35,372 nt of DNA from Streptobacillus notomytis. GTDB taxonomy: Bacteria; Fusobacteriota; Fusobacteriia; Fusobacteriales; Leptotrichiaceae. The notes under the pieces are model-generated. The model ran no database searches. It was not told where the DNA came from and saw nothing but the letters and a program-made list of their open reading frames with translations. Where the stretch lies: contig LJRV01000487.1 in the NCBI GenBank assembly GCA_001612575.1, positions 1 through 35,372 of the forward strand, given 5' to 3'. Below are positions 6,109 through 35,242 of this stretch, piece by piece (the stretch's first letter is position 1; each line of letters begins with the position of its first letter). The position numbers and the translations under genes were made by a program.

Positions 6109-6126
6109 TAAAGGAGAGGAATCTTT

Positions 6127-8122: not shown

Positions 8123-8127
8123 ATTAC

Positions 8128-8163
8128 AAAGTGATTTTAGGACTTCCCTAAGATCACTTTTTA
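8128..8163 (+). terminator. Rho-independent terminator of the PTS operon
   Basis: A 14-bp stem with one G-T pair (AAAGTGATTTTAGG at 8128-8141, CCTAAGATCACTTT at 8147-8160), a 5-base loop and a run of Ts. Confidence 0.85.
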
Positions 8164-8166
8164 ATA

Positions 8167-8194
8167 TTGACTTTTATAATTTTCAAAGTATAAT
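8167..8194 (+). promoter_or_regulatory. Sigma-70 promoter of the agaS-GH112-ABC operon
   Basis: TTGACT (8167-8172) and a perfect TATAAT (8189-8194) with a 16-bp spacer, directly after the PTS terminator. Confidence 0.75.
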
Positions 8195-8208
8195 ATACTA
8201 TATCAAAA

Positions 8209-8224
8209 TTGGTTAGAACCAGTT
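8209..8224 (+). promoter_or_regulatory. Putative GntR/HutC-type operator (agaS operon)
   Basis: The core TGGTTAGAACCA (8210-8221) is a perfect dyad apart from its two central bases. It begins about 8-9 nt after the expected transcription start, where a bound repressor would block elongation. It fits the TGGT-n4-ACCA form used by amino-sugar regulators of the HutC subfamily and resembles the site at 5590-5601. Confidence 0.55.
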
Positions 8225-8244
8225 AATATGAAGAGGTGAATTAA

Positions 8245-9399: not shown

Positions 9400-9407
9400 G
9401 AGAAAAA

Positions 9408-11531: not shown

Positions 11532-11541
11532 GAGGTATAAG

Positions 11542-12870: not shown

Positions 12871-12883
12871 TAATACTAAAGCT

Positions 12884-12908
12884 TTACAGAGAGATTAACT
12901 CTCTGTAA
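12884..12908 (+). terminator. Intercistronic hairpin after the binding-protein gene
   Basis: A perfect 10-bp stem (TTACAGAGAG / CTCTCTGTAA) with loop ATTAA, lying between the binding-protein gene and its permeases, with no long T tract. It probably acts as an RNA stabiliser or partial attenuator. Confidence 0.6.
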
Positions 12909-12932
12909 TGTCTTATTAAAGAGGAGAAATTA

Positions 12933-13829
12933 ATGAGGAAAAGGCAAAATTATTCAAGAAATTTATTTATATTCTTTTCATTAGCTCCTGCTATGATTTT
13001 ATATATATTATTTAAAATTATTCCAACACTACAAGTATTTAGAATGGCTCTGTTTAAAACTAGTGCATTGTCTAAAAATCCAAAATTTGTTGGATTAAAT
13101 AACTTTAAAATACTATTTAATGATACAAGATTCATTAAAACATTTCAAAATACTATACTTTTAATAGTTATTGTTACTATAGTTACACTTACAATAGCAG
13201 TAATTTTTGCAGCAATACTTGTTACAGAAAAAATTAAAGGTGCAGGCTTATTTAGAGTCATTTTCTATATACCCAATATATTATCTATAGTAGTAGTTTC
13301 AGGAATTTTTTCAGCTATATATGATCCAGGTCGTGGTTTAATAGATAGTATATTAATAATGTTTAGAATTAAACCTCCTCAGTTTGGTTGGCTTGGAGAT
13401 CAAAATATAGTTATTTATTCTATAGCCTTTGCCCTTATATGGCAAGCTATAGGTTATTACATGGTAATGTATATGGCAGCTATGTCAGCTATACCAAATA
13501 GTATTTATGAGGCAGCTGATATTGATGGGGCTGGAAAAATTACTAAATTTTTTAAAATTACTTTACCCCTAGTTTGGTTAAATATTAGAACTACTTTAGC
13601 TTTTTTCATAATAAGTACAATAAATCTAAGCTTTCTACTAGTTGTACCTTTAACTGGTGGAGGTCCTGATGGAGCAACAGAAGTATTCCTAAGCTATATG
13701 TATTCTCAAGCATATACAAACCAAAGTTATGGATATGGTATGACTATAGGTGTTATCGTATTCTTATTCTCATTTGCTTTATCCGGAATAATAAATGTAG
13801 TTACTAATAGAGAAATCTTACAATATTAG
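12933..13829 (+). CDS. ABC sugar permease, MalF/UgpA type
   Basis: 298 residues with six hydrophobic segments. The cytoplasmic EAA loop that docks the ATPase is 'EAADIDGAGKITKFFKITLP', a strong match to the CUT1 permease consensus. It has a GAGGAG ribosome binding site and is followed 10 bp later by the second permease. It forms a heterodimeric channel with 13840-14724 for the ligand of the 11542-12870 lipoprotein. No ATP-binding subunit lies in this operon. Confidence 0.92.
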   Translation: MRKRQNYSRNLFIFFSLAPAMILYILFKIIPTLQVFRMALFKTSALSKNPKFVGLNNFKILFNDTRFIKTFQNTILLIVIVTIVTLTIAVIFAAILVTEKIKGAGLFRVIFYIPNILSIVVVSGIFSAIYDPGRGLIDSILIMFRIKPPQFGWLGDQNIVIYSIAFALIWQAIGYYMVMYMAAMSAIPNSIYEAADIDGAGKITKFFKITLPLVWLNIRTTLAFFIISTINLSFLLVVPLTGGGPDGATEVFLSYMYSQAYTNQSYGYGMTIGVIVFLFSFALSGIINVVTNREILQY

Positions 13830-13839
13830 GAGGTAATAT

Positions 13840-14724
13840 ATGAAGAAAAAAGGAATAAGTACTGAAACACTTTATAAGCTATTTATATATCTAGCATTAA
13901 TTACTTTTGCTATATCAATAATAACTCCTGTTTCATGGGTATTTTTAGCCTCTTTAAAACAAAATTCAGAATTTGCAGGCTCTCCATGGAAATTACCCTT
14001 AGGCTTTTATTATATGAACTTTATAGATGCTTTCATAAATGCAAAAATGGGAGATTATTTATTCAATTCTATTTATGTTACTGCACTTGCACTAATATTA
14101 TTAATAATAGTAGCTCTTCCAGCTTCATACGTTCTTGCTAGAATGGAATTTAAAGGAAGAAAGTTTTTAACTACTTTTATGAAGGCTGGATTATTTATCA
14201 ATGTAAATTACATAGTTATACCTATATTTTTAATGTTACTTGATGGAGATAAATTTTTAAGAAAAAGTGAAATTATTAAAAAATCATTACTTTTAGATAA
14301 TGTAACTATACTTGCAATAATATATATGTCTACTGCCCTACCATTTACTATATATTTATTAACAAACTTCTTTCAATCAATTTCTAAAACATATGAAGAA
14401 GCTGCATATATTGATGGTGCTGGATATTTTACAACCATGATTAAAGTAATAGCTCCTATGGCAAGACCTAGTATAATTACAGTAATATTATTTAATTTCC
14501 TAGCATTCTGGAATGAATATATTATTGCACTAACATTACTACCTGGAACACAAAAAACATTGCCCGTAGGACTAATGACATTAATGGCTGCAAGTAGGGG
14601 AGCTGCAAATTATGGAAGACTTTATGCAGGTATGGTAATAGTAATGTTGCCAACATTAATACTATATATTATAGTTCAACAAAAACTTACAGAGGGTATG
14701 AGTGCTGGTGGAAGTAAAGAATAG
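13840..14724 (+). CDS. ABC sugar permease, MalG/UgpE type
   Basis: 294 residues with six membrane segments. The EAA motif is 'EEAAYIDGAGYFTTMIKVIA', and the C-terminal part ends with a helix and 'LTEGMSAGGSKE', the ending usual in MalG-type permeases. It is preceded by a TTAGGAGG ribosome binding site. It is the partner of the permease just upstream. A shared UgpC/MsmK-type ATPase must energise the pair; one candidate is the gene cut by the right edge of this window. Confidence 0.92.
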   Translation: MKKKGISTETLYKLFIYLALITFAISIITPVSWVFLASLKQNSEFAGSPWKLPLGFYYMNFIDAFINAKMGDYLFNSIYVTALALILLIIVALPASYVLARMEFKGRKFLTTFMKAGLFINVNYIVIPIFLMLLDGDKFLRKSEIIKKSLLLDNVTILAIIYMSTALPFTIYLLTNFFQSISKTYEEAAYIDGAGYFTTMIKVIAPMARPSIITVILFNFLAFWNEYIIALTLLPGTQKTLPVGLMTLMAASRGAANYGRLYAGMVIVMLPTLILYIIVQQKLTEGMSAGGSKE

Positions 14725-14901: not shown

Positions 14902-14919
14902 AAAGGGCTTTAGCCCTTT
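14902..14919. terminator. Bidirectional rho-independent terminator
   Basis: The stem AAAGGGCT (14902-14909) / AGCCCTTT (14912-14919) separates the convergent ABC operon and lacD. It overlaps the lacD stop codon. T-rich sequence follows on the plus strand and A/T-rich sequence on the other. Confidence 0.75.
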
Positions 14920-15892
14920 ATTTAGTTAATTTTAATCTCCAGTCACTAGCAGTTCTATTTAAAACTTCATCAAGTGATGTTATTTTTTCTTTACCTTCAG
15001 TTTGTAACCAGTTAATTCCTGTTTCTCTTCCTTCTAAGCTGTAAGGTTTAATAGCATCAGCCCAAGTAGCTCTTCCACATAATACCCCATTAAATGTTGA
15101 TCCAGCTTCTTTAGCTAATTCTAATGATTTTTTGAATAAGTCCATGCTTACTCCACCTGATAAGAATATGAATGGTAATGAAGTAGCTTCTGATTGCTCT
15201 TTGTAAAATGCCATTGCTTCTTCTTTAGTGTATACCCATTCTTCTCCGTAACCTTCAACATAGTTCATGTCTACTGGAATTTCCATTTTTAATACTGTTA
15301 CATTGTATCTTTCTTTTGAAAATTCTTTCATCATATCTATTACTTTACGAGGTCTAACTTTAGCGAATTCTTTACCAGTTTTTCCTGCTTCATCATAAGA
15401 AACTAATTCTAAGTATAATGGTATATCTTCTCCTAAACACTCAGAACCTAATCTTTCTATAAATATATGTTTAGCTTCATTTATAGCCTTATCATCATCA
15501 ATATCATAGTAAAGTAAGAATTTAATTGCATCAGCACCTTGTTCTTTTAATCTTTTTACTGACCAATCTTCTAACAAGTCTGGTAATCTACCTTTCTTAG
15601 TAGCATCATAACCTGTTTTTTCATATGCTAATAATAATCCTGCATCTGTTGCTCTTACTTTTGATGCTGGTAATCCAAATTCTGGATCTAATAAAATAGA
15701 TGAAGCATATTTAGTTAATTCATATGAAACTAAACTTTTAAAATCCTCAATTTTTTCAGTAGTTGCTTCTGAATAAGCTCCTATCATTTTTTTAATAGAA
15801 CCTCTTTGGTCTATTGCTAAAGCACCTATTATCCCCTCTTTATTAGAAAGTCTTTCCATAGATGCGTAAACATTTTCAGAAATTTTTCTCAT
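14918..15892 (-). CDS. lacD: Tagatose-1,6-bisphosphate aldolase LacD
   Basis: 324 residues, matching LacD/class I tagatose-bisphosphate aldolases. Family marks include 'GALAIDQRGSIKKMIGAYS' near the N-terminus, 'ASSILLDPEFGLPA', the Schiff-base region 'NVTVLKMEIPVDMNYVEG' with a Lys, and 'PFIFLSGGVSMDLF' near the phosphate site. It splits tagatose-1,6-bisphosphate into DHAP and glyceraldehyde-3-phosphate. I place the start at 15892, behind a GGTGG ribosome binding site. An in-frame ATG at 15928 overlaps the TATAAT box and would not be transcribed. It completes the AgaS route if a tagatose-6-phosphate kinase (LacC) exists elsewhere; none is in the window. Confidence 0.93.
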   Translation of the reverse strand: MRKISENVYASMERLSNKEGIIGALAIDQRGSIKKMIGAYSEATTEKIEDFKSLVSYELTKYASSILLDPEFGLPASKVRATDAGLLLAYEKTGYDATKKGRLPDLLEDWSVKRLKEQGADAIKFLLYYDIDDDKAINEAKHIFIERLGSECLGEDIPLYLELVSYDEAGKTGKEFAKVRPRKVIDMMKEFSKERYNVTVLKMEIPVDMNYVEGYGEEWVYTKEEAMAFYKEQSEATSLPFIFLSGGVSMDLFKKSLELAKEAGSTFNGVLCGRATWADAIKPYSLEGRETGINWLQTEGKEKITSLDEVLNRTASDWRLKLTK

Positions 15893-15926
15893 AATGTGAA
15901 ATCCACCTTTCAATTTTATACACTTC

Positions 15927-15932
15927 ATTATA
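15927..15932 (-). promoter_or_regulatory. -10 box of the lacD promoter
   Basis: A perfect TATAAT on the minus strand, preceded by a poor -35 (TAGAAA-like, 18 bp away). It lies 34 nt upstream of the chosen lacD start. Confidence 0.5.
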
Positions 15933-15974: not shown

Positions 15975-17132
15975 TCACAACATTGTTCCTTCTGAAAGAA
16001 TATCTACATACTTTTTATAAACATATTGTCTATATCTTTTTTTATCTTTTACAAGTTCTAATATTTCCATATCCACTAAATTTTCTAAAAGCTTATTGAC
16101 AGTCGGTTTACTAACATTAACTATTTTTCTTATATCCTCTGATTCTACAAAGGGGTGTTTCAATAGATATTCATATACTAAAACAAGATTTGTATAATTT
16201 GAAAAACTACGAATTTTCTCCATATCTTTCTCTTTAAGTTCAATAATCTTTTGAATTGACATTATTGCATCCTTAGATATTTCACAAATTCCGTTTATGA
16301 AAAATTTAATCCATTCCTTAAATTTACCATTAATACGAACTTTATTAAGAAGTTCATAATATCTATTCCTGTTCTTTTTGAAAAAATAACTCAAATAAAG
16401 AACAGGATACTCAATTAAACCTTTTTCTCTTAAATACAATGTTATCAGTAATCTCCCAACTCTTCCATTACCATCTAAAAATGGGTGTATAGTCTCAAAT
16501 TGATCGTGAATTAAAGCTATTTTTATTAAGTTTAAGATATCACTATCTTTGTTCATATATTTTTCTAAGTCACTTAAACAAATATCCATTTCACTCGGTG
16601 CAGGTGGAATAAAACTTGCATTTTTTAAGATTGAACCTGCATATCCAATAGAGTTTTGTGATTTTCTAAATTAGCCAGGACTCTTTTCTTCTCCTCTAAC
16701 ATTAGATAAAAGTATAGAATGAGTTTCTTTAATTAATCTCATGCATAATGGTAGTTCATTAAGTCTTTTAAATGCATAATTAGTTGCTTTTATATAGTTT
16801 ACGATTTCTTCAATGTCTCTTATATTCTCACCTGTCCTATCTTTTTGAAGTACATCAACAAGAGAAGCTTGTGTCCCCTCTATTTGAGAACTTATAACAG
16901 CCTCTTTTTGAACATACATAGATACAAAAAGGTCAATATCTGGCAGTGTTATTGCCATACCATCTAATCTCCCTAGTAATAAATGTGCTTTATTAATTAA
17001 AATACTTATTTCACTATCAAAATTTAATTTTATATCATTTAAATTATGTGAAACAAAACATTCATAATCACTTTGTATCCTTTTTAATTGTCCTGCTCTA
17101 TTATTTTCTAATTTCAAAATATCACATCCCAA
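15975..17132 (-). pseudogene. Fic/DOC-family AMP-transferase gene split by an in-frame TAA
   Basis: One continuous minus-strand frame of 385 codons, normal Fic length, interrupted only by TAA at 16671-16673 (codon 154). It falls where related proteins have Glu in 'PGEFRxSQN'; the sequence reads PG-stop-FRKSQNSIG, so a single GAA-to-TAA change explains it. The N-terminal part carries the self-inhibitory S-x-x-x-E-G motif (SSQIEGTQ, residues 81-88). The C-terminal part carries the catalytic HPFLDGNGRVGR loop (H at composite residue 216) and a winged-helix-like 'VSKPTVNKLLENL' segment. The 5' start is TTG at 17132 or TTG at 17117; no ATG is in frame. A fragment starting at ATG 16589 would keep the active site without the inhibitory helix. 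It is probably inactive as a full-length product. Confidence 0.85.
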
Positions 17133-20436: not shown

Positions 20437-20458
20437 AAATCCACCTAGGTGGATTTTT
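20435..20458. terminator. Bidirectional rho-independent terminator
   Basis: A perfect palindrome with 12-base arms (AAAAATCCACCT / AGGTGGATTTTT) between the convergent genes ending at 20436 and 20457; it overlaps both stop codons. Confidence 0.85.
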
Positions 20459-21455
20459 ACCATTTATACACTACTCCTCCTTTAGCATAAGGTGTAGTTG
20501 ATTCATATTTTTTACTCTTAAACTTATTCTTAAATCCTATTCCTCCATTAAATGATAACCCATTATTAATATAATAATCTGCTTTTAAATTTGTATTTAA
20601 ATTTGTTTCAAGTTTATCTACACTTAATAAAACCCTAGGAATTATTAATAGTTCTCTATTTACTCTAATTTTTAATTGATTATCAGTTTCAAACCTTAAT
20701 GAAGCAGAAGATTTTCTAACATCAACTATATCAAAATTCATTTTATTTATCATAACTCCCAATTCATTATATGTACTAAATTTAACCTTAGTATTTATAG
20801 TAACATCTACCTTACTTCCAAGCCTTACATCTGTTTCTATCATGTTCCTTTTAAACATATCTTCATTAACTAATTTCTGAGTATTTACATTAACATTAAC
20901 TCCAGCCTTACATGTTAAACTAAGATTCTTATTGAAATTATAAGAAACATACATTTCTCCATCTCCTAAACGCATACCATCAGACCAAAAATTAATATTA
21001 CCTATTTTAACATCAGGTGTGAATATTCTTTTATATAAAATATGTCCACCAACAGTTGTGGAATATAATTTACCCTCATTAGCATATTTAACTTCTAATT
21101 CTGGTCCATATTTTCCACCAAATTTATATAAAACTCCTAAATTACCATACTTTTTAAAATTTGTTCTAGCCATTAATTCTGTGTTTTCAGCATCAAAATA
21201 AACTTGTTTTGCACTCCCTTTATATCCATAACCTACTTTAGCACCCAAAGTCATAATTTCATAAACTTCTGCTCTAACTCCTAAATTATGTTCAAATAAA
21301 ATATTTGCCTCATCTTCTTTTTTCAGTTCACTAGAAACTGTCAGATTAGTTTCAACTTCTCCACCAAATGGTTTAGAATTTTTAAAATCAAATATTATAT
21401 CACTTGCAAAAATTGTAAGTGGAGAAATAATAATTAATAATACCCTTTTTTTCAT
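20457..21455 (-). CDS. Beta-barrel outer-membrane protein
   Basis: 332 residues with an N-terminal signal peptide (KKRVLLIIISPLTIFASD). The mature chain alternates polar and aromatic/aliphatic residues in many short amphipathic strands, and ends in '...YAKGGVVYKW', a C-terminal aromatic residue typical of barrels inserted by BamA. No plug, peptidase or adhesin domain is visible. It may be a small porin-like or structural barrel; no specific family is recognised. The gene lies downstream of the B3/B4 gene but a strong terminator at 21487-21520 separates them, so expression is probably independent. I see no clear promoter in the 65-bp gap. Confidence 0.7.
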   Translation of the reverse strand: MKKRVLLIIISPLTIFASDIIFDFKNSKPFGGEVETNLTVSSELKKEDEANILFEHNLGVRAEVYEIMTLGAKVGYGYKGSAKQVYFDAENTELMARTNFKKYGNLGVLYKFGGKYGPELEVKYANEGKLYSTTVGGHILYKRIFTPDVKIGNINFWSDGMRLGDGEMYVSYNFNKNLSLTCKAGVNVNVNTQKLVNEDMFKRNMIETDVRLGSKVDVTINTKVKFSTYNELGVMINKMNFDIVDVRKSSASLRFETDNQLKIRVNRELLIIPRVLLSVDKLETNLNTNLKADYYINNGLSFNGGIGFKNKFKSKKYESTTPYAKGGVVYKW

Positions 21456-23120: not shown

Positions 23121-23145
23121 CCCTAATTATATGTAAAATAAAAGA

Positions 23146-23167
23146 GAGAGTAAATATATTTACTCTC
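23146..23167 (-). terminator. Terminator of the glycosaminoglycan operon
   Basis: A perfect inverted repeat with 11-base arms (GAGAGTAAATA / TATTTACTCTC), 7 bp past the stop of the 684-residue barrel gene. On the minus strand it runs into CTTTTATTTTAC. Confidence 0.75.
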
Positions 23168-23173
23168 ATATAA

Positions 23174-25228
23174 CTACCATGTATATCTAAGATTTAATCC
23201 TACTCTTCCCTCAAAATTTCTAAATCTGAACTTTTTATTATGCTCAGTATTTTTAACAGCTTCTTGATATACTTTGAGCTTATTACTTCTTTCTGGGCTG
23301 CCCATATTTTGAGCGTCTAAATCTGCTTTCTTTTCTTTTAACTCTTTTGCATATGAAGCTGTGTTATACTTATATCTTCTAAAATCAAGTATTCCTTCTA
23401 TATAAGGTATCATTTGTAATTTTCCCTCTAATTTTCTAATAACCAATGAAAATTTAGGATTCATTCTATATGAATGTACTGCATTTATAGTACTTGTTTT
23501 TTTAATATAGTTATCTAAATTTGTATATTTTTTATCTTTATACTTACCAGAACCATAATTTTTTATAAACTCTGAGAATATTTTATAATTTTCTTGATCA
23601 AGTAAGTTATATCCATAAGTATTATTTAAATTGAGTACTGTAGTAATATCTTTGGTAGATGAATGTCTTAATTCTAAGTTTAATTTAGATAGTACAGAAT
23701 TTGCTATATTACTTTCATCCTTTTCTTTATCTTTATATAGATTATAGTACTGCAATTCTCCAAATAATGAAGTTTTTAAGCTTCCATAAGTATTTTCATG
23801 CTTAATATTAGAACTTAAAAGGAAAATATTAGATAATCTTCCATTTTTTTTAGATGCTACAGTATCAAAATCTACATAATTGTATAAATTTAATTTTAAA
23901 TCTATATTATTATTATCTAAATTATATTTTTTCTCATTAGAAATCACAGCAAAAATTCTATTATTTACTTTTTTATCATATTTCATAACATATCTTAGAT
24001 CTAAAGAAGCATTTAAATCATTATATTTATGCCATAGACTTGGACCCATTAAGATCTCATGAGTATTCATATATTCCGTTTTATTTTTTATTTTATCTGT
24101 AATCAATGTGTATCTAACATCAAATTTCTTACCAAGTTTATTATTTGAATCAATTAAACTTGTTCCTGTAATAAAAGTATTTTTAAATTCTTTTATTGAA
24201 GAATCATGCTTAATTTTCAGTTTATTTTCAATATTTGAAATTATCTTTAAGTTCTTTTTATAGTATTCTACATTAAGTTTTACATCAGGTTTATGTTCAT
24301 AATCTCCACCCTTATATGCCTTAATTATAGCTTCATAATTTATCCTTGAACTTATATTAAAATTATTTATATTATTCTTATACTCATTTGATGATACAAA
24401 TTTAAAATCATTTATTTTAGATAATTTTTTAGCCTCAAATAAAATAGAGTTTTCAAGATTTTCTTTAACAGATAATTTTGTTGATATACTATATTTTGAC
24501 CTTATACCTCCAAATCCATCTACATTCTTTTTATCTATAGTGTATGTATTCTCAGTCTTTAAAAAGCTTTTTCTTGAAATCCTACCTAAGGTTATAGCAA
24601 AGGCTTCATATTTATGTGTTCCAAGCTTCATATTATCACTAGTATATATAGATCCTAGAATTAAATTAACTTTTCTATTAACCCTACCATTTAAAACAGC
24701 AGAAATTATTGTATTTTTATCAACTTCTAAGCTATATCCACTTTCTTTTAGATTACTTTTCTTATTCCTAGCCTTATTATGAGCATTTATAGCCTCTTCA
24801 AATACCTTTTTACTTTCCTCTTTTTTAGATTTAGACTTACCATCTTCCATTACATTTTTAGTTTTAATGTATCCTTTTTTATGACCTACTGTTAAAATTA
24901 AATCAAAATCATTGTTTAATGGGGCATCTAATCTTGCTCCAAAATAGTAGTTTTCATAATTATTATTTGGCTTATTTTCCTCTTTTTTATTCTGTGTATC
25001 AACCCCACCGAAAATAAAGAGATTTTTGTTGTTATAAAAATACATTCCACCATCTAAAACAATATTAGTTGATCTCATTAAAGGCTTTCCTATATTCTTA
25101 GTCCTAACCCCCTTAGTGTCGTATTCAATTTCTCTTAATTTATGTGAATATTTTAAATCACTACTTAAAAATCCACTACTTTGTGATAATATTCCTAATA
25201 CCAATAAAAAATATATCTTCTTTTTCAT
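23174..25228 (-). CDS. Large beta-barrel outer-membrane protein of the GAG operon
   Basis: 684 residues. A signal peptide (KKKIYFLLVLGILSQSSGF) is followed by a long chain of short amphipathic strands separated by Lys/Asn-rich loops, ending '...FEGRVGLNLRYTW', the aromatic C-terminus of outer-membrane barrels. Lysine-rich loops (about residues 130-160 and 620-660) could attract anionic polymer. I recognise no TonB box, plug or SusC/SusD relation. The gene starts 11 bp after the GH88 hydrolase stop on the same strand, and the only terminator in view follows it, so it is the last gene of the GAG operon. An obvious hypothesis is an outer-membrane channel for hyaluronan/chondroitin fragments; that is inference from position. 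Confidence 0.72.
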   Translation of the reverse strand: MKKKIYFLLVLGILSQSSGFLSSDLKYSHKLREIEYDTKGVRTKNIGKPLMRSTNIVLDGGMYFYNNKNLFIFGGVDTQNKKEENKPNNNYENYYFGARLDAPLNNDFDLILTVGHKKGYIKTKNVMEDGKSKSKKEESKKVFEEAINAHNKARNKKSNLKESGYSLEVDKNTIISAVLNGRVNRKVNLILGSIYTSDNMKLGTHKYEAFAITLGRISRKSFLKTENTYTIDKKNVDGFGGIRSKYSISTKLSVKENLENSILFEAKKLSKINDFKFVSSNEYKNNINNFNISSRINYEAIIKAYKGGDYEHKPDVKLNVEYYKKNLKIISNIENKLKIKHDSSIKEFKNTFITGTSLIDSNNKLGKKFDVRYTLITDKIKNKTEYMNTHEILMGPSLWHKYNDLNASLDLRYVMKYDKKVNNRIFAVISNEKKYNLDNNNIDLKLNLYNYVDFDTVASKKNGRLSNIFLLSSNIKHENTYGSLKTSLFGELQYYNLYKDKEKDESNIANSVLSKLNLELRHSSTKDITTVLNLNNTYGYNLLDQENYKIFSEFIKNYGSGKYKDKKYTNLDNYIKKTSTINAVHSYRMNPKFSLVIRKLEGKLQMIPYIEGILDFRRYKYNTASYAKELKEKKADLDAQNMGSPERSNKLKVYQEAVKNTEHNKKFRFRNFEGRVGLNLRYTW

Positions 25229-25239
25229 ATTTTATCTCC

Positions 25240-26424
25240 TTACCAATAAATATTCCATTCTGGTTTTAAGAATCTAATTAGAGCTTCCATATAAAAATAA
25301 TCTCCCCATATACAACTTTCTCCTACTCCAATATTATGAGGCTTTGAATAAACTGATTCTTTTAATAAAGCATTTGAATTCATATCTTTAGTTGTATATT
25401 TTTCTATTAATGCCTTCATCATTGCCATTGCAGCATTATAGTAAAGGGACTTATCAGGATCATCATCTGATAAATGTTTATGCATTTCTAAAATACCACA
25501 AATAGCTATGGCTGATGAAGAACTATCTCTTTCTTCCATATCTTCAGGTTTAAAATCCATATCCCAATAACATACATTATCAACAGGTAATTTATTTAAA
25601 AAAGTATTAGTTACTTTCTTATACATATCTATGAATTTCTTATCTCCTAAATATTTATGTGCTAAGGCAAATCCATATATTCCCCATGCTTGTCCCCTTG
25701 CCCAAGTTGAATCATCTGATCTACCCTGTGCCGTAACACCCTTTAAAGGTTTACCTGTTTCTGTGTCAAAATAGAAAGTATGAAAAGTTGTTCCATTGTC
25801 CCTGATTATAACCTTAGAAACTGTTTCTAAATGTTTAGTTGCAACCTCCCTATACTTACTATCTCCCGTAACATCACTTGCCCAGAATAATAGAGGTACA
25901 TTTAAATTACAGTCTATAATTAATCTATAATCTTCTGGTTTATCTAACACTCCCCAAGCTTGAATAAATTCTCCTTTTTCCCTATATCTTCTCATTAGAA
26001 CATCAGCAGCTTTAATTGCTGTTGATTTTGCAACATCAGAATTAGTTATTTTGTAATTTGCTACAACTGATGGAATATATAAAAATCCTAAATCATGATG
26101 ATCTACTGATATATTATTATCTATTCTCTCTTTGTATGTCTTTAACTGATAATCTGCAATTTTCTTATACTTTTCCTCTAATGTAATTTCATATGCTAGC
26201 CATAATATACCTGTCCAAAATCCACTAGTCCAATCATCCCATTCCCCACCATTTAATATGCCAGGATAAATATTATTAACACTTGATGGCCTAGGGAAAG
26301 TATTTATAAATACATTACTATTTTGATCAACCTTTGTTAATGCTTCATGTAATCCTCTATAAATTATTTCATTTTTTAATTCAATTTTTTTAAATTTTTC
26401 TCTTACTTCCTTAAATAATTCCAT
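25240..26424 (-). CDS. ugl: GH88 unsaturated glucuronyl hydrolase
   Basis: 394 residues, the GH88 length. The (alpha/alpha)6-barrel signatures include 'GGEWDDWTSGFWTGILWLAY' near residue 60, 'DHHDLGF' (D111) and 'IIDCNLNVPLLFW' (D171). These aspartates are 60 apart, close to the spacing of the two essential Asp residues of characterised Bacillus UGL. 'GRSDDSTWARGQAWGIYGFA' follows. The enzyme hydrates and releases the 4,5-unsaturated uronic acid from disaccharides made by GAG lyases. It has no signal peptide, so it acts in the cytoplasm after ABC import. It sits 13 bp after the sulfatase gene. Confidence 0.93.
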   Translation of the reverse strand: MELFKEVREKFKKIELKNEIIYRGLHEALTKVDQNSNVFINTFPRPSSVNNIYPGILNGGEWDDWTSGFWTGILWLAYEITLEEKYKKIADYQLKTYKERIDNNISVDHHDLGFLYIPSVVANYKITNSDVAKSTAIKAADVLMRRYREKGEFIQAWGVLDKPEDYRLIIDCNLNVPLLFWASDVTGDSKYREVATKHLETVSKVIIRDNGTTFHTFYFDTETGKPLKGVTAQGRSDDSTWARGQAWGIYGFALAHKYLGDKKFIDMYKKVTNTFLNKLPVDNVCYWDMDFKPEDMEERDSSSSAIAICGILEMHKHLSDDDPDKSLYYNAAMAMMKALIEKYTTKDMNSNALLKESVYSKPHNIGVGESCIWGDYFYMEALIRFLKPEWNIYW

Positions 26425-26437
26425 AAAATCTCCTTAT

Positions 26438-27841
26438 TTAAAATCCGTCATTATGTTCTTTTAACCATTTTTGTAAAATAGTATTTAATTCATTTGCAAT
26501 TTTATCTTCACTAATATTTTTAATAATTTTAGGATTAAGTTGATAAATATCTTTTATATTATCATATAGTAAAGTTTCTATTTCTCTACCTGGCTCATAT
26601 CCCTTATTAATTACAAAAGTATGTTCTCTACTTTTAACTGCACGCCAACCAAAATCAAGGTTATTTAAGTTCTCTTTTTTAAATTTCTCTATAGCCTTTA
26701 TTTGCCCAGGATATGCTGCCATTATTGCAACATTTTCTAAATCTTCTTCTAAATTAACTATTACTTCTTTTAAATCTTTTCCTTCAACAGTTTTTGGTAT
26801 TTTTAAATCTAATAATGATAATAAGGTTGGCATTATATCTACCCCACTTAATACACTATCAGTAATTCCTTTATTATCACCAAACTTAATCATAAATGGA
26901 ACTCCTATAGATTCTTCATACCACACATGTTTACTCCATAACCCATGAGAACATAACATTTCTCCATGATCTGCTGTAAGAACTATTATACTATTTTCAT
27001 ATAGATTATTTTCTTTCAAATACTCTACTATTCTACCAAGATTTTCATCTATACCACTTATTGCAGCATAATACTTTCTTAATGCATCCTGAAATTCTTC
27101 TTCTGTAAAATTAAGAGCCTCTGGCATAGATTCTGTATGATCTATAACATTTTCTAATATTACATTATCACTTACTCTTAATTTTTTTCCTTTATAAAGA
27201 TTAACATATTTTTCAGGAACTAAATCAAGTGGAGTATGAGGTGGATTCCATGATAAAAATAGAGCAAATGGTTTTTCTTTATTTTTATCTAAAAATTCTA
27301 TTGCTTTATCTGTTTCATGCTCAACTGACCATTTATCTATTTCTATCATATTATGACTATTTTCCCAATAATGTGGTTTTAAATGATTATCATATGCTCC
27401 ATATGAATACCAATAATCTATACCATGTCTTTTTTTACCAGGTGGAGTATAAGCGTCCCAATTTCTTGCACCTGATTTTGGTTTTTCTTCAACATTTTCT
27501 TCTGGGTTATCTAAATGCCATTTACCTATATATCCAATATAGTAATCATTTTCTTTTAATACATCTGTTATTGTTATTGATTCTTCTTTTAACCATACAT
27601 CATAAAGACCTGTTTTACAGTTAGTCCATACCCCATGAGTTGCTGGATATGTACCTGTAAGTATACTTGCTCTACTTGGAGAACATAAAGGTCCTGTACT
27701 CACAGCATTAGTAAAAACTAATGAATCATTAGAAAATTTATCTATATTAGGTGTAATTACATCTTCTACTCCTACAAAACCTGCTGCATTTCTTCTCCAT
27801 TGATCTGCAAAAAGAAAGATTAAGTTATATTTCTTATTCAT
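26438..27841 (-). CDS. Type I sulfatase (formylglycine-dependent, Cys type)
   Basis: 467 residues, arylsulfatase/iduronate-sulfatase-like. The maturation motif is 'GPLCSPSRASILTG' with C53, the residue converted to formylglycine. The N-terminal metal site is 'FLFADQWRRNAAG' (D13, Q14). The second metal set lies in 'VLTADHGEMLCSHGLWSKH', and 'PFALFLSWNPPHTPLD' is also typical. No signal peptide is present, so desulfation is expected in the cytoplasm, on imported sulfated disaccharides. It needs a maturase (anSME or FGE), which is not in the window. Position specificity (for example GalNAc-4S, GalNAc-6S or 2-O) cannot be assigned here. Confidence 0.92.
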   Translation of the reverse strand: MNKKYNLIFLFADQWRRNAAGFVGVEDVITPNIDKFSNDSLVFTNAVSTGPLCSPSRASILTGTYPATHGVWTNCKTGLYDVWLKEESITITDVLKENDYYIGYIGKWHLDNPEENVEEKPKSGARNWDAYTPPGKKRHGIDYWYSYGAYDNHLKPHYWENSHNMIEIDKWSVEHETDKAIEFLDKNKEKPFALFLSWNPPHTPLDLVPEKYVNLYKGKKLRVSDNVILENVIDHTESMPEALNFTEEEFQDALRKYYAAISGIDENLGRIVEYLKENNLYENSIIVLTADHGEMLCSHGLWSKHVWYEESIGVPFMIKFGDNKGITDSVLSGVDIMPTLLSLLDLKIPKTVEGKDLKEVIVNLEEDLENVAIMAAYPGQIKAIEKFKKENLNNLDFGWRAVKSREHTFVINKGYEPGREIETLLYDNIKDIYQLNPKIIKNISEDKIANELNTILQKWLKEHNDGF

Positions 27842-27853
27842 AAATATTCCTAT

Positions 27854-30073
27854 CTATTTTTTTATTAAATTTATTGTCTTACTCATACCATTCTTATCTA
27901 ATTTAACAGTTATTATAGTCTTATTATTTTTATTTACCACCAAAGCATCATTACTTACATAGTTACCATCAAGCATTATTTTAGCTTCTAATAATTTGTG
28001 ATTAGGATCTGCTATAGTTAAGCTAACATTTGAACCATTTACTTTTCTAATTAATGATATAGCATCATTTATTTCTATTCCGTCAAAACACAATTTATCT
28101 GACCTCCAAGAATTAATTGCTAATATATTATCTTTTCCTATAATATGTGCAATATCATCTAATCTCTTTATTGAAATTCCTTTTACTTCCTTATCAGAAA
28201 CAGCATAGGCATAACTACCATTTTTAGGATTATTTCCATGCTTAATTATTAATTCTACAAATTCCTTGGTAATAGGATTTTCTTTTTTACCACCTATTTC
28301 TTTAAAACTTCCTGTTCTTTTAACTATATATTTTTCTATTTTAGTTCCCATTAAAGGTGTGTATACTATTTTTTTAGCACTCATGTTATTAATTCTATTA
28401 TCAACAACAGTTATTATATCCCCATCACTACTTTTAATATTTGAACCAAGTGCAACCATAATTCCATCTAATAATAGATAACTTTTCTTAGCTTCTGTTA
28501 AATTATTCCAAGAAATAAAATCCATTCCTATAAAGGCTTCTTTCCCATTTCCTGCTCCACCAACCCATGTTTTAGGACTTAAGTATTTAGGATGTCTTCT
28601 CTCACCACTTGATATTACCCTATCATTTGTACTTTCTGTAGTACCTGATAGTCTAAGTGGATTAACAGTTGGGAAATAATCTACAAAATCAGAAGAATTT
28701 TCAGTGTATATATATGTCATACCATCTCCTGTATACCAACCTTTTAAATTCTCTTTATTCATAGTCTCATAATTTGCTATCCTATTTGAATGCATAGATA
28801 TGACAAATTTCATATTATTTTCTCCTATGCCCACTGCTCTATCCATATACGAGAATACTTTAGTACCCTTAACGTCTAAAGGTTTAATATTCTTATCTTT
28901 TACTATCTCATTTAAAATATTTGCTATTACTAAATTATTAACACTATCAGGCATATATTCTAAATTATTATCTAATATAGCTTTTTTAACTATAGATTCA
29001 ATCTTATTTTTATACTCCCCTTTTGCACCACGTGAAATTAAGGCAAGTGAATTAATAATAGGTCTAGCTCTCACTAAATCATTTGAATCATCTCTACTTA
29101 TAGACCTACCATTAACAGAATCATTAATTCCACCATTAATTAATAAATAAGAATAACCATTTAATATTACATCATAAATATTAATAATACTTGGATTATC
29201 TATTTCAAATGAAGTATTTCCTGTTAAGTATATAAACTGAGAAAGACCATTTAATAATACCTGTCCATAAGTCCCACTATATGCTACATTTTCATGTTGA
29301 ATAAATGAATGATCTTTATAAAACCCATCCCCTTTTTCAACGTATTCTCCAACTACAGCAACTGAATTTATAGCTCTTTTAATTTCTGAAGCATTTCCTT
29401 CTAATATACCTCTACCATAAGTTACTAAGGCTGTATCCATTCTATTTCCACCCTTTGAAACTCTCTTATTAGGACTCGTTGAAGTTTTTGCTGAAGATGA
29501 TGCTCCAGAAAATTCTGGATCTGGTTGGAAATAATATGAAGCTTTTAAAAGATTATCAGCAATTTCTTTTTCTACTATTCCTTCTCCCATAATTAATATT
29601 TCATTTAATGTCTTAGGTATACCAATTTCCCATTCCCACCAATTTCCTTTTTCCATAGCTCCTTTTACATAACCATTTTGTGATATTATTTCAAGAGCAA
29701 TATTGATAATTTCTTTTACTTCCTTATCTTTATAAACCTTAGTATCTGGTGTAAGATATGCTTTTATCAAAGTTTGTATATCTTTTAAAGATTTTAGTAA
29801 ATGAGGTCCACTACTCATATCCTGATAATCTTTAAACACATAATTTTGTGTTTCATAAACTCTAACTTTATTTAAAATATCTTCTGAACTTTTATTTAAT
29901 TTTTCTATATTCTTTTCTTTATTTTCTTTAGATACCTCTTTTAAAGAAATATTATACGGTACATTTAATAAAAACTCTTTCCACTTTAACTTCATAGTTT
30001 CTATTTCTTTATTTTGATTATTAAAACTTAAAATCCCTACAATTAGAGTTAAAAATACTATTATTTTTTTCAT
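27854..30073 (-). CDS. PL8 hyaluronate/chondroitin lyase, secreted
   Basis: 739 residues with a non-lipoprotein signal peptide (MKKIIVFLTLIVGILSF), so it is exported past the inner membrane. PL8 residues are all present: the aromatic patch W145/W146, catalytic N210 (GGNRMDTA), H260 and Y269 (QHENVAYSGTYG). The N-H and H-Y spacings (50 and 9) equal those of pneumococcal hyaluronate lyase. The 'MHSNRIANYETMNKENLKGW' and 'YTGDGMTYIY' stretches and a C-terminal beta domain follow. It cleaves hyaluronan and possibly chondroitin by beta-elimination to unsaturated disaccharides. It lacks the long N-terminal carbohydrate-binding modules of Gram-positive enzymes. It overlaps the preceding lyase gene by 4 bp. 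Confidence 0.95.
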   Translation of the reverse strand: MKKIIVFLTLIVGILSFNNQNKEIETMKLKWKEFLLNVPYNISLKEVSKENKEKNIEKLNKSSEDILNKVRVYETQNYVFKDYQDMSSGPHLLKSLKDIQTLIKAYLTPDTKVYKDKEVKEIINIALEIISQNGYVKGAMEKGNWWEWEIGIPKTLNEILIMGEGIVEKEIADNLLKASYYFQPDPEFSGASSSAKTSTSPNKRVSKGGNRMDTALVTYGRGILEGNASEIKRAINSVAVVGEYVEKGDGFYKDHSFIQHENVAYSGTYGQVLLNGLSQFIYLTGNTSFEIDNPSIINIYDVILNGYSYLLINGGINDSVNGRSISRDDSNDLVRARPIINSLALISRGAKGEYKNKIESIVKKAILDNNLEYMPDSVNNLVIANILNEIVKDKNIKPLDVKGTKVFSYMDRAVGIGENNMKFVISMHSNRIANYETMNKENLKGWYTGDGMTYIYTENSSDFVDYFPTVNPLRLSGTTESTNDRVISSGERRHPKYLSPKTWVGGAGNGKEAFIGMDFISWNNLTEAKKSYLLLDGIMVALGSNIKSSDGDIITVVDNRINNMSAKKIVYTPLMGTKIEKYIVKRTGSFKEIGGKKENPITKEFVELIIKHGNNPKNGSYAYAVSDKEVKGISIKRLDDIAHIIGKDNILAINSWRSDKLCFDGIEINDAISLIRKVNGSNVSLTIADPNHKLLEAKIMLDGNYVSNDALVVNKNNKTIITVKLDKNGMSKTINLIKK

Positions 30074-31866
30074 TTTACAACCACCTTAAAATTTTTATAT
30101 AAAGGATCATTTTTAATATATATGACATTTTGTTCTTCTATGTTATCTTCATTTTTACAAAAAATCATATATTTTTTATCTCCAGAAGTAATTTTACAAA
30201 AATATCCTCTATTATTGCAATATATTTCTTCAAATTGTATATTCTTATTTAATATTTTATGAACTATCTGAATACTATCTTTAAAATTATATTCAAGCAT
30301 AACGAATTTACTTTTTTCTTTTTCATTATACCTACTACTATATATTCCCTCATTCATTGTATATTTCCCTACATTAAAGTATATACACTTATTAAGTAAA
30401 AGACTTTCTTTTCCTTCATCTATTTCTAATTTAGGATGAAAATGATAATACATTTTCAAATTATGTTTACCTTTAGAATATATCCTATTTATTATTATTA
30501 CATTATCCTCACAAAGTATGAATTTTCTTTCAATATATGCATTACTTTCTATATCAAATACATTCATTTTAATGCAAATAACACCCTTATCTTCTACTCT
30601 ATCTATAGGACTTATTAAAGGATATTTACCCACATATTCCCATGAATTTTTAACATTTAAAAATTCTTTATTATCAAGAACTAGTGTATTATGAGCAGCA
30701 GCACTCTTTAAATATCTTCTATACTCATTGTCTAAATATGTATATCTTCCATTATCAACTAACATTTCTACTTCATTAAAATAGTTAAAATGGAATAAAT
30801 CAACATGTAAATGACCAGAGCTCATATTAGTTAGATAACTACTAAAAGAATAGTTATTATTTATAAGGTGATAATATCCACTCTCTTTTAATAAGTATTC
30901 TCTTTTTTTATTTGTAGCTTTTTCTAATATATATCCATTAACATAATCTCCAGCAAACATATATGAGTTTTCTTTTAAACTATATTTTCCCTTTATTTTT
31001 AACACTGCATTTGCCATAGCTAAGATATCTTCAACATTATCATCATCACTATCTCCAAAATTTATTTGTTTAAAATTTGGATAATGTAATTTTTCTGCTG
31101 ATTTAAGCATCTTCTTTAAATATTTAGTAAATAGATTACATTTAATATTAAGATTTTTTTCTATCATTACTACCCATACAGTATAAATTAACATCTGATA
31201 ATGATATGTCATTGATTTTTCTATATGTAATCCATCATTATCTATCTGTGTCTCAAGCTGAATTTTCATATACTTTTTTGCTTTTTTATAATACACCTTA
31301 TTATACATCAGTGCAAAGGTATATACTCCAGCCATTTGTATATACCCCCAATTACTATGATAATATTTTTCTAAGAATGAATTAAATATGTATATACAGG
31401 TCTTATCCAAATGATCTATTATACAATTTTCTTCATTTTTAGTAATATATTTTAATTCCTTTAAGTATATTAAAGCTCTAAGTATATTTATTATTCTTAT
31501 CCCACTATCTAAAGTTCTTGTACTTAACTCATATTTTAAGTCCTTATGGGTATTAATAAAATCAAAAATTATTTCTTTTATTTTAAGTAAATACTTTTCT
31601 TCTTTATTTTTTTCATAAGCTAGAAATAGGGGATCAAAATAGTTCATTCTACTTCTCATAAATATCCATTCTTCATCATCATTTACTAACTCATTCCAAT
31701 CTTTAGGAATAGTAAAATATTGTGAAGTTCTTTCCATGTCCCATGGATGAATGAATATTAGTTTATTTTCTAATATATTTTCTGCCTGCTCTAATTGCAT
31801 ATCTACATTAAAATTATGTAATACATAATTAAAATTCTTTCTAAAGTTAAACACAGTATCCTCCAT
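30070..31866 (-). CDS. Heparinase II/III-family lyase, cytoplasmic
   Basis: 598 residues. The N-terminal alpha-toroid (about 1-310) shows 'LSTRTLDSGIRIINILRAL' and 'YYHSNWGYIQMAGVYTFALM', typical of Hepar_II_III_N. The C-terminal beta-sandwich has 'SSGHLHVDLFHF' (about 345-356) and 'YLKSAAAHNTLVLDN' (about 385-400), positions of the catalytic/metal His residues in PL12/PL21-like enzymes. There is no signal peptide, so it likely acts on imported oligosaccharides rather than polymer. Exact polysaccharide lyase family and substrate (heparan, hyaluronan or chondroitin oligomers) are undetermined. It is downstream of the binding-protein gene across a strong hairpin. Confidence 0.85.
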   Translation of the reverse strand: MEDTVFNFRKNFNYVLHNFNVDMQLEQAENILENKLIFIHPWDMERTSQYFTIPKDWNELVNDDEEWIFMRSRMNYFDPLFLAYEKNKEEKYLLKIKEIIFDFINTHKDLKYELSTRTLDSGIRIINILRALIYLKELKYITKNEENCIIDHLDKTCIYIFNSFLEKYYHSNWGYIQMAGVYTFALMYNKVYYKKAKKYMKIQLETQIDNDGLHIEKSMTYHYQMLIYTVWVVMIEKNLNIKCNLFTKYLKKMLKSAEKLHYPNFKQINFGDSDDDNVEDILAMANAVLKIKGKYSLKENSYMFAGDYVNGYILEKATNKKREYLLKESGYYHLINNNYSFSSYLTNMSSGHLHVDLFHFNYFNEVEMLVDNGRYTYLDNEYRRYLKSAAAHNTLVLDNKEFLNVKNSWEYVGKYPLISPIDRVEDKGVICIKMNVFDIESNAYIERKFILCEDNVIIINRIYSKGKHNLKMYYHFHPKLEIDEGKESLLLNKCIYFNVGKYTMNEGIYSSRYNEKEKSKFVMLEYNFKDSIQIVHKILNKNIQFEEIYCNNRGYFCKITSGDKKYMIFCKNEDNIEEQNVIYIKNDPLYKNFKVVVK

Positions 31867-31874
31867 TGTTTAAC

Positions 31875-31900
31875 TAAAGGGAGAATTTCTTCTCCCTTTA
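31875..31900 (-). terminator. Intercistronic hairpin after the GAG binding-protein gene
   Basis: Perfect 11-base arms (TAAAGGGAGAA / TTCTCCCTTTA) with a 4-base loop, 9 bp past the stop of the binding-protein gene. The downstream T tract is short, so it is likely a partial terminator or mRNA-end stabiliser that raises transporter over lyase transcripts. Confidence 0.65.
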
Positions 31901-31909
31901 TTATTTATA

Positions 31910-33427
31910 TTATCTATTAAAGTTTTTGAATGCTTCATTTTGAATTTTTTCAGCTGTAGATAATCCTAAATCTTGTAATCTCTTAATATACATGTCCCAT
32001 TCCTTATCTATATTTCCAGAACCTAAAATCCATTGTTGTGCTTTTTCTTCAACAACTGCTCTTAAAGCTGTATCTATAGAAACAAATTCTTTTGATTTTT
32101 CTTTAGTGTATTTAAGTATTGGTAACTCATCTAATACTACATCATTATCCATATAGTATTTAAATCCTTCTTTAGCAATTTGAGATGCCCAACCTAACTC
32201 ATATTGTGCATCTTGGAATGCTCCCAGTCTATATTGAGCTCCAACTTCTCTTAATACTGCTAAAGGAGTTTTTCCGTCAGGATTTTTAAGTACTTTATCT
32301 GTAAATACTGGTTTACCATCAACTAATGTATATTCTGATCCTTCTATACCAAAGTTCCATAATCTTCTACCTTCAATTGAATACCAATAATCAAAATATT
32401 TAATTAATGAAACTGGATCTTTAGCATCCTTAGATATTCCCCAACCACCTAAATATGTAGTTCTAGCATGTCTTGTTTTACTATTTCCATTTAATTCATA
32501 AGGAAGAACTAATCTAAAGTTAAATCCAGGTATTTTATCTGCTAAACTTCCATTATATGAACTAGTTGAAGCTATCCAGTCATCTGTTGCTCCACCTAAG
32601 TTATTTGATAATAAGTAATCTCTACTTTCTAATCCTCTTGTAAATATTTCCTCATCTATTAATCCTTCTTTATACCATTTAGATAATTCTTTAATAGCAT
32701 GTTTAAATGAATCTTGTGAAGGTCCATATTTAACAACACCGTTTTCTTCATACCATATAGGTGATGCTTTAAATAGATCAACTAATGAAGTTAAAACCTT
32801 TCTAACATTATTAGCTCTTACAAACAATGGAACTTCATCTTTTTTACCATTTCCATTTGGATCCTTTTCTCTAAATGCTTTTAGTGTAGTATATAGTTCA
32901 TCTACTGTTCTTGGTTCTTTTAATCCTAATTTATCTAACCAATCCTGTCTAATGAAATATCCTTGAGAAACTTTTAAATTAAAGTAATCATAATAATTAG
33001 GAATCATATATATATGTCCATCAATTGCAACTGCATCCTTCTTATATCTAGGATTTTCTTCAAAGAATTTCTTTAAATTTGGTGCATGTTTATCTATTAA
33101 ATCTTCTAATGGTATTAATCCACCTTCTATACCTAAGTTTTCTAAATCAGATGATAATTCATATGAGATAATATCAGGTAATTTATTCTCTGTAAGCATT
33201 AAGTTATATGCTTGAATTTGATCTGTTTGATTTTGAGAAGCAACATTTACTAATTTAATATTAGTATCTTGCTCAGCTTTTGCAAATACAGGTAATTTAG
33301 GGTCTAATGCTTTACCTAAATGCATTGCAAATATTGTTGTTTCTTTTGGTCCTGTCATAGTTTCATCTTTTTTTCCACAACTTACTACTACTAATCCTAA
33401 AAGTCCCAATGCTAATAATTTTTTCAT
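31910..33427 (-). CDS. ABC solute-binding lipoprotein for GAG oligosaccharides (LplA-like)
   Basis: 505 residues, the long type of family 1 binding protein that pairs with LplB/LplC-type permeases. The lipobox cysteine is C17 (GLVVVSCGKKDE). Signatures include 'DIISYELSSDLENLGIEGGL', 'GYFIRQDWLDKLGLKEP' and a Ca-binding-like loop 'DPNGNGKKDEVP' near residue 190. In this operon it should capture unsaturated hyaluronan/chondroitin disaccharides; from memory, a Streptobacillus moniliformis protein of this type (Smon0123) has been shown to do so. Specificity here is inferred from context. Confidence 0.9.
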   Translation of the reverse strand: MKKLLALGLLGLVVVSCGKKDETMTGPKETTIFAMHLGKALDPKLPVFAKAEQDTNIKLVNVASQNQTDQIQAYNLMLTENKLPDIISYELSSDLENLGIEGGLIPLEDLIDKHAPNLKKFFEENPRYKKDAVAIDGHIYMIPNYYDYFNLKVSQGYFIRQDWLDKLGLKEPRTVDELYTTLKAFREKDPNGNGKKDEVPLFVRANNVRKVLTSLVDLFKASPIWYEENGVVKYGPSQDSFKHAIKELSKWYKEGLIDEEIFTRGLESRDYLLSNNLGGATDDWIASTSSYNGSLADKIPGFNFRLVLPYELNGNSKTRHARTTYLGGWGISKDAKDPVSLIKYFDYWYSIEGRRLWNFGIEGSEYTLVDGKPVFTDKVLKNPDGKTPLAVLREVGAQYRLGAFQDAQYELGWASQIAKEGFKYYMDNDVVLDELPILKYTKEKSKEFVSIDTALRAVVEEKAQQWILGSGNIDKEWDMYIKRLQDLGLSTAEKIQNEAFKNFNR

Positions 33428-33457: not shown

Positions 33458-34336
33458 TTATCCTTTTACTGCCCCTAATGTTACCCCTTTTCTAAAGAAT
33501 CTTTGTATAAATGGGTATGCAATTAACATAGGTAATATTGAAATTACTATTATTGCATATATTATTGATTGTGGTGATGTTAAGCTCTCTGGTGTAATTA
33601 ACTGTGCTGCTTCACCACTAGACATCTTATCTACTATTAATTTTTTTACAAATACCTGTAAAGGTGCTTTTGCATCATCTCTTAAAAGTATCATAGTCCA
33701 AAAATATCCATTCCAACGAGATATTGCATAAAACAATGAAACGGTTGTAATTGCTGATGTTGATAATGGTAAATATATATTAGTCATTATCCTAAATTGA
33801 CTTGCACCATCTATTCTTGCTGATTCCTCTAAAGATCTAGGTACACTTTCAAAGAAAGATTTTAGTATTATTACATTAAATGTATTAATTGCAAATCCTA
33901 CTATCACTCCTGTATAACTATTTATCATACCCAAATCTCTAAAATTTAAATACTTAGGTATTATGCCAGGATCAAACCACATAGTTATTATTACAAGCAT
34001 TATTATTGCTTTTCTAAACTTTAAATCTGGTTTAGATAATACATATGCCCCACTAATAGTAAATAGCATATTAACAAATGTTCCTACTACGGTTATAAAG
34101 ATTGTATTTGCATAAGCTCTCCATATCCCTGTTGTCTTAAAAGCTGCAATAAAAGATGATAACGTAAATCCTTTAGGAAATAGCGTAACTTGCCCTGTTT
34201 CTAGTAAAAATGGATTACTAAAAGATGCAGAAAATACATATACTATTGGATATAGGAAAATAATGGCAAAAACTGTTAATAAAAAGTAGTTTATTACATT
34301 AAAAACTTTTTCATCTGTACTCATTCTTATTTTCAT
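33458..34336 (-). CDS. ABC permease, LplC type (GAG importer)
   Basis: 292 residues with six hydrophobic segments. The ATPase-docking EAA loop is 'EESARIDGASQFRIMTNIYL', and the protein ends '...PFIQRFFRKGVTLGAVKG', a signature C-terminus of LplC/YtcP-type permeases. It forms the channel with 34346-35242. It is spaced 9 bp from its partner and 30 bp from the binding-protein gene, all on one transcript. Confidence 0.93.
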   Translation of the reverse strand: MKIRMSTDEKVFNVINYFLLTVFAIIFLYPIVYVFSASFSNPFLLETGQVTLFPKGFTLSSFIAAFKTTGIWRAYANTIFITVVGTFVNMLFTISGAYVLSKPDLKFRKAIIMLVIITMWFDPGIIPKYLNFRDLGMINSYTGVIVGFAINTFNVIILKSFFESVPRSLEESARIDGASQFRIMTNIYLPLSTSAITTVSLFYAISRWNGYFWTMILLRDDAKAPLQVFVKKLIVDKMSSGEAAQLITPESLTSPQSIIYAIIVISILPMLIAYPFIQRFFRKGVTLGAVKG

Positions 34337-34345
34337 CTATATCAC

Positions 34346-35242
34346 CTACCATATTCCTAAATTTGCTACTTTTTTGCTTATAGTATTTGCTGTGTATACT
34401 AAAAGCATAGCTATTATTGCATTAAATAATCCTACTGCTGTTGCTAAACCAAAATCTTGATTAATTACTCCAGTTCTGTAAACATAAGTACTTATTACAT
34501 CGGCTGTTTCATAAGTAGCTGGTTGATAAAGTAATAATACTGTTTCAAATGCTACACTCAACATAGAACCTATTTTTAAAATTAACATTACTACTATAGT
34601 TGGCATTATACTTGGTATAGTAATATTTATTAATTGTTGTAATTTTGTTGCTCCATCAATTTTTGCTGCCTCATAAAGTTGTTCATCTACTGCAGTTAGA
34701 GCTGCTATGTATATGATTGCATTAAATCCTGTATTCTTCCATGAATTTAATCCAACAAATATTCCTCTAAAAAATTCTGGTTTAATCAAGAAATATATTT
34801 TTTCAAATCCAAGTTTTTGTAATATTATATTTATTACTCCTGTATTTGGTGATAACATATTTATTGTTATACCTGCTGCAATAACAATAGCTATAAAATA
34901 TGGTATAAATGAAGCCGTTTGTACAAAAGCTTTAAAAATCTTATTCCTAACTTCATTTAACATAAGTGCTATTAATATAGCTAAAGGAAATTCTATTAAT
35001 AGTGAATATATATTTAACATAAGAGTATTTTTTAAAGTTCTATAAAACTCTGGTGATGTTAAAAACATTCTAAAATGTTTTAGTCCTACCCACGGACTAC
35101 TGGCTATTCCTTTAAATACACTGTAATCTTTAAACGCTATTAATAATCCATACATAGGTTTAAACATAAATAATACATACCAAATAATAAACGGTAGCAT
35201 TATTAAATACAGCGATATCTGATCTCTATTAAATTTTTTCAT
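34346..35242 (-). CDS. ABC permease, LplB type (GAG importer)
   Basis: 298 residues with six membrane segments. The N-terminus shows the usual 'YLIMLPFIIWYVLFMFKPMYG' helix, the EAA loop reads 'YEAAKIDGATKLQQLINITI', and the protein ends 'TISKKVANLGIW', typical of LplB/YteP permeases. The ribosome binding site AGGTGA precedes it. It follows the ATPase gene by 9 bp. Confidence 0.93.
   Translation of the reverse strand: MKKFNRDQISLYLIMLPFIIWYVLFMFKPMYGLLIAFKDYSVFKGIASSPWVGLKHFRMFLTSPEFYRTLKNTLMLNIYSLLIEFPLAILIALMLNEVRNKIFKAFVQTASFIPYFIAIVIAAGITINMLSPNTGVINIILQKLGFEKIYFLIKPEFFRGIFVGLNSWKNTGFNAIIYIAALTAVDEQLYEAAKIDGATKLQQLINITIPSIMPTIVVMLILKIGSMLSVAFETVLLLYQPATYETADVISTYVYRTGVINQDFGLATAVGLFNAIIAMLLVYTANTISKKVANLGIW

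Follow-up and report, generated by a model that had tools for sequence, protein, structure and literature searches.

How host glycosaminoglycan (GAG) sugars cross the outer membrane of Streptobacillus is the question that this locus raises. GAG degradation, expression of the responsible gene cluster and import of disaccharides across the inner membrane have been demonstrated, halo assays suggest extracellular lyase activity, and the disaccharides are described as reaching the periplasm in Streptobacillus "by an unknown channel/transporter" (PMC5430744). The window analysed here, a 35,372-nucleotide stretch of Streptobacillus notomytis DNA, corresponds in equal gene order to Smon0121–Smon0128 of the S. 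moniliformis GAG cluster Smon0115–Smon0128 (Oiki et al. 2017, PMC5430744). Smon0128 appears in that paper only as a "hypothetical protein," and no later work naming it was found in a literature search; here a barrel fold and a role are proposed for it. The first-pass annotation had called its orthologue in the window unrecognised, which stands for the outer-membrane family, not previously described, but not for the gene itself, already listed as Smon0128.

The last gene of the GAG operon

The features of the operon, all on the minus strand, are as follows.

23126–23154 (−): promoter-like site of the next transcription unit (TTTACT-17-TATAAT), −10 box in four of four species
23146–23167 (−): intrinsic-terminator-like 9-bp hairpin closing the operon, then TCTTTTATTT; kept in three of four species
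23174–25228 (−): predicted outer-membrane beta-barrel gene, 684 amino acids, Smon0128 orthologue; signal peptide, about 26 predicted strands, C-terminal ...GRVGLNLRYTW
25229–25242 (−): GH88 stop codon TAA merging into the ribosome-binding site (RBS) of the barrel gene (TAAGGAG; TTGGTAAGGAG), identical in four of four species
25240–26424 (−): GH88 unsaturated glucuronyl hydrolase, Smon0127 orthologue, without signal peptide
26438–27841 (−): sulfatase, Smon0126 orthologue, without signal peptide
27854–30073 (−): PL8 hyaluronate/chondroitin lyase, Smon0125 orthologue, signal peptide present
30070–31866 (−): heparinase II/III (PL12 in PMC5430744), Smon0124 orthologue, without signal peptide
31875–31900 (−): conserved 11-bp hairpin within the operon, at the binding protein/heparinase junction, without a clean U-run (T-run) downstream
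31910–33427 (−): GAG-disaccharide binding lipoprotein, Smon0123 orthologue, PDB 5XS8 family
33458–34336 (−): ABC permease, Smon0122 orthologue
34346–35242 (−): ABC permease, Smon0121 orthologue

The minus-strand order is thus two ABC permeases, binding protein, heparinase II/III, PL8, sulfatase and GH88, with the barrel gene last. The barrel open reading frame is unbroken from its ATG at 25228 and is separated from the end of GH88 by 11 nt (GGAGATAAAAT), confirming the spacing first reported. This gap, together with the conserved stop/RBS overlap, leaves no space for a promoter between the two genes, which speaks against the separate promoter at 25228–25240 that had been named as a possible refutation of the proposal. 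Just 3′ of the barrel-gene stop lies the terminator-like hairpin with its T-rich tail (lost in genome G003), followed by the next unit's own TATAAT, in support of the barrel gene as the last of the operon. That this is the operon's only clear terminator holds with a qualification, given the second hairpin at 31875–31900. The latter is near-identical in four species and perhaps serves differential expression inside the operon.

Among the cluster proteins read, export signals were found only in the binding protein (as a lipoprotein), one PL8 and the barrel protein. GH88, the sulfatase, the heparinase and the Smon0117-type PL8 have none, so GAG substrate must cross both membranes. That the heparinase and one PL8 enzyme of the two lack signal peptides is consistent with uptake of pieces longer than disaccharides, and the substrate may possibly enter in such lengths. 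In genome G001 the binding protein matches PDB 5XS8 (Smon0123 as published for S. moniliformis) without a difference; G001 is thus either this species or, by the present data, not distinguishable from it. The binding protein of the window also matches 5XS8, less closely, and is 92.5% identical to that of G001, which makes the window another Streptobacillus.

Three further loci in the window were noted. A probable second locus for host glycans lies close to the GAG operon, at 5635–14724 and 14918–15928, with genes for a lacto-N-biose/galacto-N-biose phosphorylase, an ABC importer, a mannose-type PTS, a SIS-domain protein and a DeoC/LacD aldolase. A Fic-family gene at 15975–17132 appears to lie in two open reading frames (Fic_N, 16671–17132; Fic plus TrmB-like, 15975–16589), possibly split by a frameshift. 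A second exported protein, of 332 amino acids with terminal ...YKW and no Pfam match, is encoded at 20457–21455 by a fast-evolving gene (dN/dS 0.44) present at the same place in G001. As a GAG porin it is disfavoured, since neither G002 nor G003 showed a counterpart downstream of the B3/4 gene.

Predicted fold and export of the barrel protein

The protein starts with a Sec signal peptide, read by eye (MKKKIYFLLVLGIL), and ends in GRVGLNLRYTW, an aromatic beta-signal. The terminal tryptophan is found in all orthologues and intact paralogues. Two AlphaFold2 models were obtained, both of them barrels. The better one, built from 15 family members, had a mean pLDDT of 72, with values mostly of 80–95 over residues 170–540; residues 1–95, the first strands and several loops were of low confidence, and a plug or gate may lie within these N-terminal 95 or so residues or the loops. 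Read as alternating strands, the model contains 26, an even number as for an antiparallel barrel, with outer loops of 16.8 residues on average against 2.2 for the periplasmic turns and large helical outer loops at 118–172, 541–583 and 620–667. The in/out hydrophobic alternation of the strands exceeded that of 2000 of 2000 within-strand shuffles.

In a Foldseek search of the PDB, all 50 listed matches were outer-membrane barrels or translocons, and LptD, the Mtr barrel and the large SlpA/SDBC barrels were the closest folds among them. As TM-scores among the listed matches were at most 0.37, at 5–10% identity, only the barrel class can be assigned and not a specific channel family. A viral fold library gave generic matches only. 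Taken from the models, the fold matches and strand amphipathicity, membership of the outer-membrane beta-barrel class is very probable; the claim of an exported barrel-like protein is upheld, and a non-barrel fold was not seen.

Large barrels of secretion systems also occur among the listed matches, and the PL8 lyase has a signal peptide and, by the halo assays (PMC5430744), apparently acts outside the cell. The barrel might then be a pore that secretes this lyase and not an import channel, which we consider highly improbable: the cluster has no secretion-system partner gene, and neither sequence nor domain searches connected the protein with known secretion barrels.

Comparison with known outer-membrane importers

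Searches of Pfam, NCBIfam and PHROGs gave no significant match to the barrel protein, and neither did the PDB by sequence or by profile. There was likewise no match in phage and plasmid records, contigs of 84,980 species or viral contigs, collections from which relatives of the genus may be absent. Plug and TonB_C domains were not detected in any of four Streptobacillus genomes, control genomes being positive; with no Pfam match and no plug domain in the protein itself, membership of the SusC/TonB family was rejected, in agreement with the original reading, and energised SusCD-type import looks unavailable to the genus. Bacteroides SusC/SusD TonB-dependent GAG importers likewise move glycans over the outer membrane and are encoded in a GAG locus, whereas the Streptobacillus cluster has no detected plug domain or SusD-type gene.

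The KdgM/KdgN oligogalacturonate porins offer a functional parallel, being dedicated channels for acidic uronate oligosaccharides that feed an ABC importer. The KdgM domain (PF06178) was found neither in the barrel protein nor in the four genomes of the genus, again with positive controls, and this membership was also rejected; the protein differs further in its approximately 26 strands, the KdgM barrel being smaller. Membership of LptD was rejected as well, since the barrel protein has no Pfam LptD/OstA match, although PF04453 was found nowhere in the genus, so that the LptD of the genus itself was not located. The autotransporter domain PF03797 gave no match in the barrel protein.

Orthologues and paralogues

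Orthologues with 60–73% protein identity lie directly after GH88 in all four Streptobacillus genomes, bearing out the expected conservation beside GH88/PL8 genes. Among 98 Fusobacteriota genomes searched by profile, Streptobacillus alone had the family, apart from weak Sneathia-like matches and one marginal match with a wider profile. Each Streptobacillus genome has several members. Branches B–F are not located near GAG genes: B adjoins a PpiD-like gene, C follows a lipoprotein gene, and D, E and F are found at other sites. The GAG members (branch A) form one clade with 100/100 support and a long stem, with B as sister (96/98). The Sneathia-like protein, which like B is encoded next to a PpiD-like gene, has weak profile similarity over its C-terminal 59 residues only, which tentatively suggests an older origin of the family. 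Like branches B–F, these ppiD-linked proteins belong to the same family, are not GAG-linked and are less basic. The barrel type is therefore not GAG-specific; only branch A is. Homologues found mostly away from GAG genes had been named as evidence against the proposal, which describes the other family members but not branch A, beside GAG genes in four of four genomes.

A multi-copy family with members at unrelated sites could also have placed a general outer-membrane protein behind GH88 by chance, with no role in GAG use. Branch A does evolve fast (72% amino acid identity against 91% for GH88), and its dN/dS of 0.26 indicates purifying selection, compared with 0.05–0.19 for the enzyme and transporter genes of the operon. 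Chance insertion is nevertheless quite improbable in our view, given the retention of site and stop/RBS overlap in four of four species, the single clade with its long stem, the charge shift of this branch and the analogous exported gene at the equal position in another genus (both below).

Two further observations concern single family members. The G002 orthologue (L012 10051–12333) has about 40 extra residues resembling the neighbouring stretch, query residues 343–382 being matched twice; judged from the sequence, this looks like a duplicated beta-hairpin. Paralogue B is present in G001 as one full-length gene and at least eight partial copies at several sites, with 93–99.8% DNA identity. 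Copies in G001 C1 are as follows.

L014: 9567–11735 and 15367–17425
L015: 8964–9799
L050: 4130–5443
L051: 4533–5780
L052: 3377–4027
L053: 3438–3979

All partial copies lack the first 96 or so nt (start and signal peptide) and the last 12 or so nt. Such a layout is that of silent cassettes for gene conversion and points to possible antigenic variation in S. moniliformis; no literature report of this was found. B copies also form the ends of several contigs in the draft genomes G000 and G002.

Charge of the outer loops and lumen

Net charge was +22 to +52 for GAG members against −2 to +35 for paralogues, and among the family members read the GAG member was the most basic per 100 residues in each genome. 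A one-sided rank test on basicity gave p = 0.004, to be read in the light of the four orthologues sharing one ancestor and forming one lineage, so that the comparison does not amount to four independent tests. The difference is due to the outer loops, whose column charge was +10 to +28 in the GAG branch but only −10 to 0 in B and C, and the lysine-rich loops described at the outset are thereby substantiated. Lumen charge of the GAG branch overlapped or fell below that of branch C. A basic lumen, which had been expected as support, was accordingly rejected as a distinguishing mark, branch C paralogues being equally or more positive.

A charge excess seated in the loops and not the lumen would also suit a surface docking protein or adhesin, whose lysine-rich loops would keep GAG chains close to the lyase or attach to host matrix, with small sugars entering through another porin. 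The large helical outer loops are in keeping with this, as are the big autotransporters adjoining PL8 in other fusobacterial GAG clusters. The barrel is much bigger than an anchor requires, however, the operon partners are cytosolic catabolic enzymes and importers and not adhesins, and the four loci share no other dedicated outer-membrane gene; we regard docking without import as unlikely.

Other fusobacterial GAG clusters

In the sister-genus genome G009, an exported protein with net charge +20 and ending in ...MEYKW (L086:2061–3395) is encoded directly after GH88. No homology between this protein and the barrel protein was detected. Autotransporter-domain proteins are encoded beside PL8 in several fusobacterial genomes, and an OmpG-like porin in G035. 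It seems that each lineage recruited its own outer-membrane part for the GAG cluster. Proteins of 1319–1497 amino acids lie beside PL8 in three such clusters (L087 13114–17445, L089 10918–14877 and L093 11204–15697); their autotransporter domain is internal and is followed by at least 350 residues ending in an aromatic residue.

Proposed role in GAG import

The barrel gene is the only barrel gene common to the four GAG loci, and a role of its product in the GAG pathway is likely. Pore function, substrate and direction are inferred. On balance we favour a dedicated channel for GAG oligosaccharides, with or without a docking function. Hyaluronan and chondroitin sulfate, or fragments from the exported PL8 lyase, would be drawn to the lysine-rich outer loops and would diffuse through the barrel of about 26 strands without TonB. 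A binding protein of the Smon0123 type would then capture the sugars in the periplasm and deliver them to the ABC permease, and cytoplasmic GH88, sulfatase, heparinase and the second PL8 would complete the breakdown. With no TonB C-terminal domain, plug or KdgM domain in four genomes, passive entry through the barrel is the simplest route. Disaccharides could use a general porin instead.

A more specific and less probable reading is that a very wide plug-less barrel, recruited from a Streptobacillus surface-protein family, needs neither TonB nor a SusD-like lid to import GAG oligosaccharides or even longer chains, its electrostatic collar of loops concentrating the anionic polymer. It would then be a TonB-free counterpart of SusCD import.

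The protein is thus the best candidate for the outer-membrane gate of host GAG sugars, a well-supported candidate and not a demonstrated new type of porin. The inner-membrane half of Streptobacillus GAG import has been solved structurally and biochemically, the outer-membrane half being the published gap; one concrete gene can now be named for this step, in a genus with no detectable TonB route. If the proposal is true, it would add a route independent of TonB by which a diderm pathogen, the rat-bite-fever bacterium, feeds on host extracellular matrix.
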